From Enhydrobacter aerosaccus (lineage in GTDB: Bacteria > Pseudomonadota > Alphaproteobacteria > Reyranellales > Reyranellaceae): DNA of 64,000 bases. The position numbers were made by a program, and so were the translations under genes. The notes beneath the pieces were generated by a model, which did not search any database, was not told the origin of the DNA, and saw only the letters and a list, made by a program, of their open reading frames with translations. This document shows, piece after piece, positions 3,743-28,925 of this stretch (within the stretch, counting starts at the first letter, position 1; the number at the start of each line of letters is the position of its first letter). Location of the stretch: assembly GCA_903915535.1 (NCBI GenBank), contig CAIWTJ010000096.1, forward strand, positions 1 through 64,000, given 5' to 3'.

Positions 3743-4201
3743 TCACTCCCACTTGCCCATCGCCTTGGCGCGCGCCGCCTCGGGGATCTTGTCGATGTCG
3801 GGCACCTTGAACACGCCGGTCGCCACCAGGACGATTTCCCCGCCGCAGACCAGGTCGCAACTGCAGAAGCAGAAGTTGAGCGTGCGACGGGCGATGCGGG
3901 CGGTGCCTTCGAGCCATTGACCGAGCTTGGCGCCGCGCACGAACTCGGTGCTGAGCGAGACGGTCGGATGCGGCCAGCGGATGCCGGTGGCGTGGCCCGA
4001 GCCCACGCCCATCACCATGTCGGCCACGGTGACCAGCAAGCCGCCATGCGCCCAGCCCATCGGGTTGCCGTGGCGCGGCTCGAGCGGCAGGCCGATGCGG
4101 ATCTTCTCGTCTTCCACCTTGTACCAAAGCGGACCGATCAGGCCGACGAAGTCGTCGCGAACGTCGAGCGGACGAAAGCCTTCGGGAACGAGCGCATTCA
4201 T
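3743..4201 (-). CDS. PaaI-family hotdog thioesterase
   Basis: GNPMGWAHGGLLVTVADMVMGVGSG hotdog motif. Confidence 0.85.
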   Translation of the reverse strand: MNALVPEGFRPLDVRDDFVGLIGPLWYKVEDEKIRIGLPLEPRHGNPMGWAHGGLLVTVADMVMGVGSGHATGIRWPHPTVSLSTEFVRGAKLGQWLEGTARIARRTLNFCFCSCDLVCGGEIVLVATGVFKVPDIDKIPEAARAKAMGKWE

Positions 4202-4641
4202 GTCGGCAATCCGTCCTTGGAAGCAGCCATTGCGTGGAGGGTGGCACGCACGACGGGATCGAACGGCGTGCTGCGATGCGTCTCCTCGTCGAGCGACACC
4301 ATGATCACCTTCTGCACCGCCGTGCAGGCGCCCTTCTCGTCGAACAGCGCCTGGCCGATCACGCACTTGCGGTCGTGCGCCTCGATGAGACGCGCACAGG
4401 CCGTCGCGGTGCCAGGAAAGAACATCTGGCGCTTGAAATCGGCCTCGAGGCGCCCGATCACCAGCCGGAAGCGTGGCAGGCCCGAACGCACGATGATGCG
4501 CAGATAGGAGACCCGCGCGTTCTCCAGCAGTTCGATAAACGCGCCGTTGTTCACGTGGCCGTTGGCGTCGAGGTCGGCGAAGCGCAAGTTTTCCGTCGTG
4601 GCAAAGCCGTAGATGCCGCGATCGGCGAGATCCAAAGTCAT
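4198..4641 (-). CDS. 4-hydroxybenzoyl-CoA thioesterase-like acyl-CoA thioesterase
   Basis: RFADLDANGHVNNGAFIELLENARVSYL hotdog motif. Confidence 0.85.
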   Translation of the reverse strand: MTLDLADRGIYGFATTENLRFADLDANGHVNNGAFIELLENARVSYLRIIVRSGLPRFRLVIGRLEADFKRQMFFPGTATACARLIEAHDRKCVIGQALFDEKGACTAVQKVIMVSLDEETHRSTPFDPVVRATLHAMAASKDGLPT

Positions 4642-24826: not shown

Positions 24827-25069
24827 ATGACCAAGCATCGTCTGCTCGTCGCTTCGGCCGCGATCCTGTTCGCCGTCGGCAGCGCGGCATCGGTCGCGTC
24901 GGCGGGGACCAACAAGGTGAAGTGCGGCGGCGGCAACTCCTGCAAGGGCACCAGCGCGTGCAAGACGGCCCAGAATTCCTGCAAGGGTCAGAATTCGTGC
25001 AAGGGCATGGGCTGGAGCGAGACCAGCTCCGAGGCCGAGTGCACCACCAAGGGCGGCAAGGTGCTGTAG
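24827..25069 (+). CDS. Secreted Cys-rich bufferin-type (BufA2-like) precursor peptide, copy 1
   Basis: 80 aa: signal peptide then KCGGGNSCKGTSACKTAQNSCKGQNSCKGMGWSETSSEAEC; same Cys spacing as copies 2 and 3. Confidence 0.85.
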   Translation: MTKHRLLVASAAILFAVGSAASVASAGTNKVKCGGGNSCKGTSACKTAQNSCKGQNSCKGMGWSETSSEAECTTKGGKVL

Positions 25070-25392
25070 ACTTCGCGCCGAGCTCATCCTTCCGCGCGAG
25101 CAATCGCGCAAAACAGCCATGACCAAGTTTCGCATCTACTCACGCGCGCGTGAAAATAACGCGTGGCTGCCGGCGCGACTCGAAAATACGCATATCGATA
25201 CGCGAACAATGCCAAGTAGATAACGCAATCGAGCCATTCGCATATGACCTCACTACTCAAACACTCGTGATCCATGAATGGGTCGCGACACGCGCCTGTG
25301 ATGGAGCCATACGGTTGGGCGACGGATAGAGTTCGTCCAGCACGTCACCTCTTCAACAACAGACGTGTGTTCACTTCGCTTGGGAGTTTCAG

Positions 25393-25662
25393 ATGAAGAA
25401 GTCTTTCGTTATGGCCGCCGCGACCGTGTTCGCCGCCGGCACCATGGTCGCCTCGATCGCGAGCGCCCAGACGCCGAATAGCCCGGGTTTCGGCAACGAC
25501 TCGCTGGCCTGCAAGGGTATCAATGCCTGCAAGGGCCAGAGCGCCTGCAAGTCCGCTTCGAACGCCTGCAAGGGCCAGAACGCTTGCAAGGGTCAGGGCT
25601 GGGTGGCCTCGAAGAGCCGTCTCGACTGCCAGGCTGCCGGCGGCTCCAACGCGGCTTTCTAA
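25393..25662 (+). CDS. Secreted Cys-rich bufferin-type (BufA2-like) precursor peptide, copy 2
   Basis: 89 aa: [26 protein letters not shown] + [32 protein letters not shown]...DC. Confidence 0.88.
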
Positions 25663-25680
25663 GCACCGCAAACCGATCAG

Positions 25681-25719
25681 AAGGGCGCCCCGGCTCAAGC
25701 CGGCGGCGCCCTTTTTTTT
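25681..25719 (+). terminator. Rho-independent terminator after precursor copy 2
   Basis: aagggcgcc-c-cggct/caagccggcggcgccctt stem followed by a T tract (cttttttttg). Confidence 0.85.
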
Positions 25720-25878
25720 GCGCCTGGGTCCGGCGGGTTATCCATTCGGCTATTCACGTCAAGATCACGACACCTCAAGATAATTTGAAATCTAGCTCTT
25801 CCCATCCACCAAGGTTGGACTATCGTAGCAAATATGCAGGGCTGTCCTGCAAGGTATAAGGGACAAGGGAGCTAAGTT

Positions 25879-26148
25879 ATGAGGAAGTCTTTCGTCGTGG
25901 CAGCCGCCACCATCTTCGCCGCCGGCACGCTCGCCGCTTCGGTCGCCAGCGCGCAGACCGGCAACAGCCCGTCGTTCGGTCAGAACAAGACCGACTGCAA
26001 GGGCATCAACGCCTGCAAGGGCCAGAGCGCCTGCAAGTCGGCCGCCAACGCCTGCAAGGGCCAGAACGCCTGCAAGGGCCAGGGCTGGGTCCAGAACACC
26101 GCCGGTCTCGCCTGCCTCGCGCAGGGTGGCGTCGTGGGTGGCGGCTGA
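25879..26148 (+). CDS. Secreted Cys-rich bufferin-type (BufA2-like) precursor peptide, copy 3
   Basis: 89 aa: [26 protein letters not shown] + [32 protein letters not shown]...AC. Confidence 0.88.
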
Positions 26149-26214
26149 TACCCGACTAACCTGCTAAAGATTGCGTAACAGCGGCAGCGCTGTTGCCCAA
26201 TTGCTTTAGAGAAA

Positions 26215-26251
26215 GGGGCGCCCCGGGAAACCGGTGGCGCCCCGATCTTTT
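26215..26251 (+). terminator. Terminator/attenuator-like hairpin between precursor copy 3 and the MNIO gene
   Basis: ggggcgccccgg-gaaa-ccgg-t-ggcgcccc followed by gatctttt. Confidence 0.65.
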
Positions 26252-26278
26252 GGACCTATTTCTGGGGTAAGGTGGGGA

Positions 26279-27124
26279 ATGGTCACTGAAAAAGTCGATT
26301 TTGGCCTGGGCCTTCGGCCCGAGCATTTTGAAGAGATTGCCGCCAATCCCGGCCGAGTAAGCTGGTTCGAGGCGCTCTCCGAGAACTACATGGTCCCAGG
26401 CGGCAGCCCGTTGCACTGGCTCGACCAGATCCGCCGCGACTATCCGATGGCGCTGCATGGCGTGTCGCTGTCGATCGGCTCGATCGATCCCCTCGACACC
26501 ACCTATCTCGACGAGCTGAAGACGCTTGCAGATCGTGTGCAGCCGATGTGGATTTCCGACCATCTCTGCTTCACCGGCCTGCGCGGCATGAACATGCACG
26601 ACCTCCTGCCGCTGCCCTATACCGAGGAGGCGCTGAACCACGTGGCCGACCGCGTGATGCGCGTACAGGACCATCTCGGCCGCCGCCTCGTCCTCGAGAA
26701 CGTCTCGAGCTACGTCACCTATGCCGCCTCCGAGCTCAACGAGTGGGAGTTCATCGCCGAGCTCGCCAAGCGTTCGGACTGCGAGATCCTGCTCGATGTG
26801 AACAACGTCTATGTCAGCGCCTTCAATCACGAATTCGACGCCAGGACCTTCCTGCGCGCCATGCCGAAGGATCGCGTGCGCCAGTTCCACCTCGCCGGCC
26901 ACGAGCACCGCGGCACGCACATCGTCGACACGCACGATCATCCGATCGTGCCCGACGTGTGGGAGCTTTATGCCGAGGCCGTCCGGCTGTTCCCGAATGT
27001 GCCGACCATGATCGAACGCGACGCCAACATTCCGCCCTACGCGGAGCTGCTGGAGGAACTCGACGAGGCCCGGCGCATTGCGGAGCAAGTGCGGCGCGAG
27101 ACGGCGCCGAAAGCAGTGGCATGA
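26279..27124 (+). CDS. bufB: MNIO (multinuclear non-heme iron oxidase, DUF692) RiPP-modifying enzyme
   Basis: FGLGLRPEHFEEIAANPGRVSWFEALSENYM...HGVSLSIGS...ISDHLCFTG...LLDVNNVYVSAFNHEFD...FHLAGHEHRGTHIVDTHDHPI, DUF692 signature. Confidence 0.93.
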   Translation: MVTEKVDFGLGLRPEHFEEIAANPGRVSWFEALSENYMVPGGSPLHWLDQIRRDYPMALHGVSLSIGSIDPLDTTYLDELKTLADRVQPMWISDHLCFTGLRGMNMHDLLPLPYTEEALNHVADRVMRVQDHLGRRLVLENVSSYVTYAASELNEWEFIAELAKRSDCEILLDVNNVYVSAFNHEFDARTFLRAMPKDRVRQFHLAGHEHRGTHIVDTHDHPIVPDVWELYAEAVRLFPNVPTMIERDANIPPYAELLEELDEARRIAEQVRRETAPKAVA

Positions 27125-27921
27125 GCATCGTCTCGAATGCGGGATCGCTGGCCGATCTGCAGCGCGCCTTCCAGGACTATCTGCTGGAGAAGAGCGACGG
27201 CTTTGCGGCGGCGGTGCGCGACACGAAGAAGATCGACCGCGTCACCCTGCTCGGCGTCTATCGCGACGCCTACACGCTGCGCCTGATCGAAGTGCTGACA
27301 ATCGACTATCCCGGGCTGATGGGGATGGCCGGCCCCGCCGACTTCGACTACATGGCGCGCGCGTATATCGCGGCCCATCCCTCGCACCATCCGTCGGTCC
27401 GCTGGTTCGGACGCGGCCTCGCCGATTTCCTGGCGGCGACACCGCCGTTCAACGGCTCTCAGGCGGTGATCGACATGGCGCGCTTCGAATGGGCGATGGG
27501 CGATGCGTTCGACGCCCCCAATGCCCAGCCCATCGGCGCCGAGGCGCTGATGACCCTGCAGCCCGAGGCCTGGGAAACGCTGTCCTTTGCCGTGCTGCCC
27601 TCGCTTCATCGCCTGACGCTCACGTTCGACGTGCCGCAGGCCTGGCAGCGCCGCGACGAAGAGGAACCCGGCAATCTCGAGGTCGAACCGTCGGCGCGGC
27701 CGACGGACTGGGCGATCTGGCGGCCCGAGCGCATGACCAACTTCCGCTCGCTCGAAGCCGACGAGGCCGTCCTGCTCGACGCGCTGATCGAGGGGCGCCC
27801 CTTTCCCGAGCTGTGCGAAGCGATCGTGCCGATGGTCGGCGAGGATCAGGCCATGGCGCGCGCCGCCGGCCTCTTACGCGTGTGGGTCGAAGGCGGGATG
27901 ATCGCGTCCTTCGCCCACTGA
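27121..27921 (+). CDS. bufC: DUF2063 (HvfC/BufC-type) MNIO partner protein
   Basis: LADLQRAFQDYLLEK...LLGVYRDAYTLRLIEVLTIDYPGLMGMAG...ARAYIAAHPSHHPSVRWFGRGLADFLA; 4-bp overlap with the MNIO gene. Confidence 0.92.
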   Translation: MSIVSNAGSLADLQRAFQDYLLEKSDGFAAAVRDTKKIDRVTLLGVYRDAYTLRLIEVLTIDYPGLMGMAGPADFDYMARAYIAAHPSHHPSVRWFGRGLADFLAATPPFNGSQAVIDMARFEWAMGDAFDAPNAQPIGAEALMTLQPEAWETLSFAVLPSLHRLTLTFDVPQAWQRRDEEEPGNLEVEPSARPTDWAIWRPERMTNFRSLEADEAVLLDALIEGRPFPELCEAIVPMVGEDQAMARAAGLLRVWVEGGMIASFAH

Positions 27922-27940: not shown

Positions 27941-28027
27941 GCCCGCTTGATGGAATTGGTAGACATACAGGACTTAAAATCCTGAGGCCGCAAGGCCGTG
28001 CCGGTTCAAGTCCGGCAGCGGGTACCA
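27941..28027 (+). tRNA. tRNA-Leu (anticodon UAA), CCA encoded
   Basis: gcccgct...agcgggt acceptor stem, anticodon arm cagga-cttaaaa-tcctg, variable arm, T-arm gccggttcaagtccggc, terminal CCA. Confidence 0.95.
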
Positions 28028-28813: not shown

Positions 28814-28925
28814 GGCCGGTCCTCCCGCTTATGTGTCGGTCCATAGGGCACGATCGAACGATCCATTTCAACTCTTACGAAGCGCTGCCGGTTCAATTCC
28901 GGCAGGAGGTATCGGCGACGACCGC

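Follow-up and report, generated by a model that had tools for sequence, protein, structure and literature searches.

Among described systems, the closest to the locus analysed here is bufferin-2 (BufA2; Buf_6/12Cys, NF050166), a known family of copper-binding peptides within the Cys-Lys captophorins. Its precursors carry a signal peptide, six cysteines and NACKG motifs, and its genes follow the order bufA-bufB-bufC. The Cys-Lys motif has been named as the feature that defines these precursors (PMC13097082), and tandem bufferin precursor genes have already been described (PMC12452194). Bufferin-1 (BufA1, DUF2282, PF10048) has a related profile: it shares with bufferin-2 a first cysteine in a C-x-G context, a W...C...GG end, and first and last cysteines at equivalent places. 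In contrast to bufferin-2, it has four cysteines rather than six, has no CKG motifs and lacks a pair equivalent to C2 and C5. A third group, the EGKCG captophorins (oxazolin, fontiphorin, bulbicupramide), also starts from Cys-rich precursors, which an MNIO and its DUF2063 partner convert to copper-binding thiooxazoles. Unlike in BufA2, the lysine there precedes the cysteine instead of following it, the number of repeats is variable and there is no evident disulphide frame.

Three bufferin-2 precursors upstream of one maturase pair

We analysed a 64,000-nucleotide stretch of DNA (hereafter the window) in which three precursor genes lie directly upstream of bufB and bufC, on the same strand and in the bufA-bufB-bufC order. 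The precursors are bufA2-1 (24827..25069, + strand, 80 aa), bufA2-2 (25393..25662, +, 89 aa) and bufA2-3 (25879..26148, +, 89 aa). Each is an open reading frame that scores above the curated cut-off of 60 bits for the NCBIfam BufA2 profile NF050166 (83.5, 80.2 and 79.6 bits, respectively), in agreement with their original designation as BufA2-like; because all three exceed it, their cysteine pattern is not due to chance. A search with the Buf1/DUF2282 profile PF10048 gave no match to any of the three. By eye, their N-termini look like signal peptides, with one or more basic residues, a hydrophobic stretch and AxA; in bufA2-1 this Sec-type signal would end with the AxA at about residue 26. The three genes are ordinary BufA2 precursors in an ordinary gene cluster, adding members to an already known family.

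The original prediction was that all three precursors share the spacing C-x5-C-x5-C-x6-C-x5-C-x13-C, and in fact the gaps are 5, 5, 6, 5 and 13 in each, as scored on the cysteine gaps of the translated frames. C1 to C6 are residues 33, 39, 45, 52, 58 and 72 of bufA2-1, and residues 40, 46, 52, 59, 65 and 79 of both bufA2-2 and bufA2-3. Sequence and alignment place the six-Cys cores at 24923..25042 (copy 1), 25510..25629 (copy 2) and 25996..26115 (copy 3), all on the + strand. The mature parts quoted earlier match the translated frames exactly, and the codons of C1-C6 lie inside 24896-26133. Alignment shows the copies to be paralogues; the other two share 70% and 50% identity with copy 2. Their agreement in spacing thus reflects shared descent and does not amount to three independent observations; a C5-C6 gap of 13 is seen three times in the window because the copies are close relatives.

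Cysteine spacing across the family

Paralogues at 50-70% identity would be expected if the spacing came merely from recent duplication of one gene, without any structural constraint. Evidence on this comes from homologue loci drawn from 84,980 species genomes together with genus, phylum (Pseudomonadota) and family sets, in which all six-frame open reading frames were searched with an iterated profile before the cysteine gaps were measured. No gap length was fixed beforehand, although the way the six-Cys window was picked favours C-K positions; the sample is also biased towards Reyranella, and thinning at 75% identity reduced it to 57 sequences. All six cysteines are present in the usual pattern in 185 of 191 distinct cores, and in every one of these 185, spread over the phylum Pseudomonadota, the gaps from C1 to C5 are 5, 5, 6 and 5. 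Flank lengths, in contrast, vary: from C6 to the stop codon there are 6 to 70 residues, against only 12 or 13 between C5 and C6. We consider it highly improbable that recent duplication without constraint explains such data, and the spacing reads instead as a family-wide signature. Chance or pure duplication as the sole cause was rejected on the identical C1-C5 gaps of the 185 homologues.

The distance from C5 to C6 had been proposed to be both structurally constrained and fixed at 13. The constraint stands: in the homologue alignment that had been suggested as a check, the cysteine scoring revealed no freely varying C5-C6 spacing, and only 12 or 13 residues occur in the 185 six-Cys domains. 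The fixed length does not, 13 being found in 118 of the 185 and 12 in the other 67; after thinning, the shorter gap is present in 32 of the 57 sequences and the longer in 25. Mapped on a BufB tree, the C5-C6 length of the nearest precursor needs at least three changes, and in clusters L011 and L156 precursors of either length lie together. The length thus behaves as a slow two-state trait, constrained but not fixed at 13.

Among the six cores outside the usual pattern, three lack C4 yet keep C1, C6, all other spacing and the register, while the other three have an odd pattern or are interrupted by Ns. Natural BufA2 variants without C4 alone, with the other spacing intact, occur at L067, L177 and L185 (CKGGQSPAKG, CKGNASPGKG). 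Degenerate or truncated BufA2 copies were also seen in tandem arrays, at L053 (ORF 3895-4527), L031 and L033; the divergent paralogue of L053 has lost C1 and C3, with Tyr and Arg in their places, and has kept C6.

Proposed roles of the six cysteines

The six cysteines are not alike in their surroundings. Among the 191 cores, lysine follows C2 in 190, C3 in 171, C4 in 189 and C5 in 187, as against 13 for C1 and 14 for C6; in the 57 thinned sequences the counts from C1 to C6 are 4, 57, 46, 56, 57 and 6. Nearly every member has C2-C5 in an (A/S)-C-K context, but not C1 and C6. The CKG repeat unit reported earlier is partly right for the window: each of the three copies reads CKG at C2, C4 and C5, but C3 is CK(S/T) and C1 of copy 1 is CGG, and a reading in terms of repeats overlooks the fact that C1 and C6 fall outside the (A/S)-C-K context seen at C2-C5.

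All six cysteines could nonetheless be converted to thiooxazoles, the spacing then arising from stepwise threading of the peptide through the BufB active site, as has been proposed for EGKCG-type captophorins. In that family every repeat cysteine is modified (six in MmrA), and C1 of copies 2 and 3 has the same CKG context as the other sites. Yet lysine follows C1 and C6 in only about 7% of members each, compared with 90-99% at C2-C5, and it never follows C6 in the window. A comparison with bufferin-1 also weighs against modification of all six. Aligned profile to profile (hhalign) with a Buf1/DUF2282 set of 39 sequences, all PF10048, Buf2 matches with a probability of 91.8% (E 7e-7), and C1, C2, C3 and C4 of Buf1 pair with C1, C3, C4 and C6 of Buf2. 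In Buf1, according to the Fig. 3 legend of PMC12452194, the central cysteines are modified while a disulphide joins the first to the last, so that the alignment puts C1 and C6 of Buf2 on the disulphide cysteines and C3 and C4 on the two thiooxazole cysteines. We therefore regard oxidation of all six as unlikely. From the lysine contexts, this pairing and the chemistry of Buf1 we infer that in Buf2 C2-C5 most likely end up as thiooxazoles, with C1 and C6 joined in a disulphide that pins the peptide together rather than binding metal.

A limited literature search found no published modification sites for Buf2, a large family whose six cysteines the comparison now divides by proposed role. These roles would be separable by mass, at about -18 Da for four thiooxazoles plus one disulphide and about -24 Da for six thiooxazoles. 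In BufA2 peptides each modified cysteine would show as a loss of 4 Da, with a 305 nm band and copper binding as further marks; thiooxazoles can also be alkylated (PMC13097082). The original prediction had counted a C6 that is unmodified and dispensable as evidence against it; probably half of this holds, C6 being predicted to escape modification by the MNIO but to be needed structurally. We lean slightly towards a further proposal, that Buf1 and Buf2 derive from one ancestral scaffold with a first-to-last disulphide and a last cysteine on an N-capped helix, differing in two versus four thiooxazole cysteines. If so, Buf2 would keep a frame like that of Buf1 and carry twice as many copper-binding groups.

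We envision the following mechanism, which we hold to be likely as a whole. Each gene would give rise to a secreted BufA2 precursor, whose C2-C5, in their (A/S)-C-K context, would be oxidised to 5-thiooxazoles by the BufB/BufC pair prior to Sec export; in the periplasm, the thiooxazoles would bind excess copper. C1 and C6 would not be substrates, and a disulphide forming between them after export would clamp the peptide by tying its first strand to the short helix that bears C6. The C5-C6 stretch would be a strand-turn-helix running up to this C6 helix. The homologues without C4 that retain C1 and C6 fit such a clamp. Against it speak the L053 paralogue, where C1 is lost but C6 is not, the CKG context of C1 in copies 2 and 3, the missing N-cap residue of copy 3, an hhalign probability of 92% rather than close to 100%, and the low confidence of the structure models.

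The C5-C6 tail and the predicted C6 helix

The tail was originally thought to be free of sequence constraint, and this we could not uphold. Across the 185 homologues, C5 is followed by KGxG, invariant or nearly so, then by W or F and sometimes M. S/T/D/N occupies the position four before C6 (C6-4) in 177 of them (95.7%) and in 53 of the 57 thinned sequences, compared with only 10-38% at other tail positions. This residue is found in 91% of domains with 12 residues between C5 and C6 and in 98% of those with 13, keeping register with C6, not C5, across both length classes. After C6 comes GG, with glycine at C6+4 in 142 homologues and at C6+5 in 150. S/T/D/N four residues before a cysteine and glycine after it typically mark a helix N-cap and a glycine stop, and we read the residue at C6-4 and the GG after C6 in these terms. 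In the window, copies 1 and 2 have Ser at C6-4; copy 3 is an exception in the alignment, with Ala there and Thr at C6-5.

AlphaFold2 models of copy 3, with a gap of 13, and of a Legionella homologue, with a gap of 12, agree in the order of their elements: a strand with C1, a long loop with C2-C5, a strand, a short helix with C6, and a strand. In both, the helix begins just after C6-4. Confidence is low (mean pLDDT 58.7 and 67.6), the C6 region being the best of each model (72 and 80). Searching the PDB for structures similar to the model with a gap of 13 gave no matches, and a profile search returned one weak and meaningless match only.

Between G(W/F) and C6 the sequences share only about 21-24% identity although the C5-C6 distance is conserved, as might be expected if BufB/BufC used the segment for recognition or as a follower, its length set by docking and not by the mature fold. 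Several observations speak against this. The features that are conserved are the helix N-cap and the GG around C6; a single BufB accompanies both length classes in L011 and L156; and, to go by a title cited in PMC13419390, bufferins reportedly use their Sec signal peptide as the leader. We thus find a docking element quite doubtful, even more so than oxidation of all six cysteines, and favour the strand-turn-helix: because the stretch would lead into the C6 helix, it would be held at 12-13 residues with the N-cap four before C6.

The maturase genes and other copies

The maturase gene bufB (26279..27124, +, 281 aa) encodes an MNIO (DUF692) that scores 381.9 bits against NF050167 MNIO_BufB (cut-off 310) and 369 bits against PF05114. 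The start codon of bufC (27121..27921, +, 266 aa) overlaps its stop; BufC, the DUF2063 partner, passes the PF09836 cut-off with 71.2 bits and matches NF050145 HvfC weakly, at 32 bits, below the cut-off. Cys-Lys type MNIOs are described with Asp at the position of Phe250 in FonB, a logo feature of 100 enzymes (PMC13097082). The window BufB departs from this expectation for BufB2: it reads ERDANIPP at the site after the catalytic Asp, with Ala at residue 250 (FonB numbering; the position was equated by the ERD-x-NIPP motif, not by structure). Of 95 BufB with an adjacent BufA2, 57 carry Asp at residue 250 and 35, mostly from Reyranella, carry Ala; one has Gly and two are unread. We take Ala versus Asp here as variation within the Cys-Lys type and, given the 35 enzymes with Ala, Asp is probably not required for NACKG substrates. 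Ala at a proposed specificity site offers a natural case for how MNIOs choose cysteines. A link between C5-C6 length and residue 250 looked strong in the raw counts, with 42 cases of length 12 and Asp and 33 of length 13 and Ala, but was dropped because there were too few independent pairs.

Beyond its three tandem precursors, the locus differs from described bufferin-2 in its genomic setting. Five BufA2 genes of the genome pass the cut-off: the three in the window and two elsewhere that have no maturase beside them. The MNIO genes number two, and there is no second maturase of the Buf2 type; a single Buf1 (DUF2282) gene, related to Buf2 by profile, comes with its own MNIO (L006 / G000:C303). 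Thus one BufBC pair may serve five precursors, an arrangement already suggested for such genomes (PMC12452194). Within the genus, the BufA2 profile matches 64 of 65 genomes at E values of up to 0.001 and exceeds its cut-off in 45; the weaker matches examined are Buf1-type, so 45 is the safer count of BufA2 genomes. Several Reyranella records are among the closest named loci, and the host looks like an alphaproteobacterium of the Reyranella kind.

Hairpins and flanking DNA

RNA folding revealed two strong hairpins between the genes. One, at 25679..25719 (+) between bufA2-2 and bufA2-3, is followed by eight Ts, forming an intrinsic terminator (-33.0 kcal/mol, z -5.7, for 25672-25722), and recurs behind the corresponding gene in genome G003 (L149). 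The other, at 26210..26253 (+) between bufA2-3 and bufB, coincides with inverted repeat I3, has a weak T tract (-33.4 kcal/mol, z -5.2, for 26204-26260) and is a probable leaky terminator or attenuator. A simple terminator scan had missed both, probably owing to a bulge, and direct folding found them. In our survey, hairpins follow precursor genes in about half of the gaps. With two hairpins between the genes, a natural reading is that partial termination would yield precursors in excess of the maturase. A promoter scan of the region found no sigma-70-like promoter.

Closely similar G+C-rich hairpins, of the GGCGCCCCGG...CCGGCGGCGCCCC type, occur after bufA2-2, after bufA2-3 and after an orphan bufA2 on contig C185; the third such hairpin (L147, about 3878-3914) makes it look as if each gene copy had its own terminator. 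An Rfam search of the region matched only a tRNA, and a tRNA-Leu (UAA) gene lies at 27941-28027, directly downstream of bufC. About 0.9 kb downstream, 20 bases at 28887-28906 match the T-arm region of tRNA-Leu with two mismatches and may be the relic of a tRNA or a former integration site.
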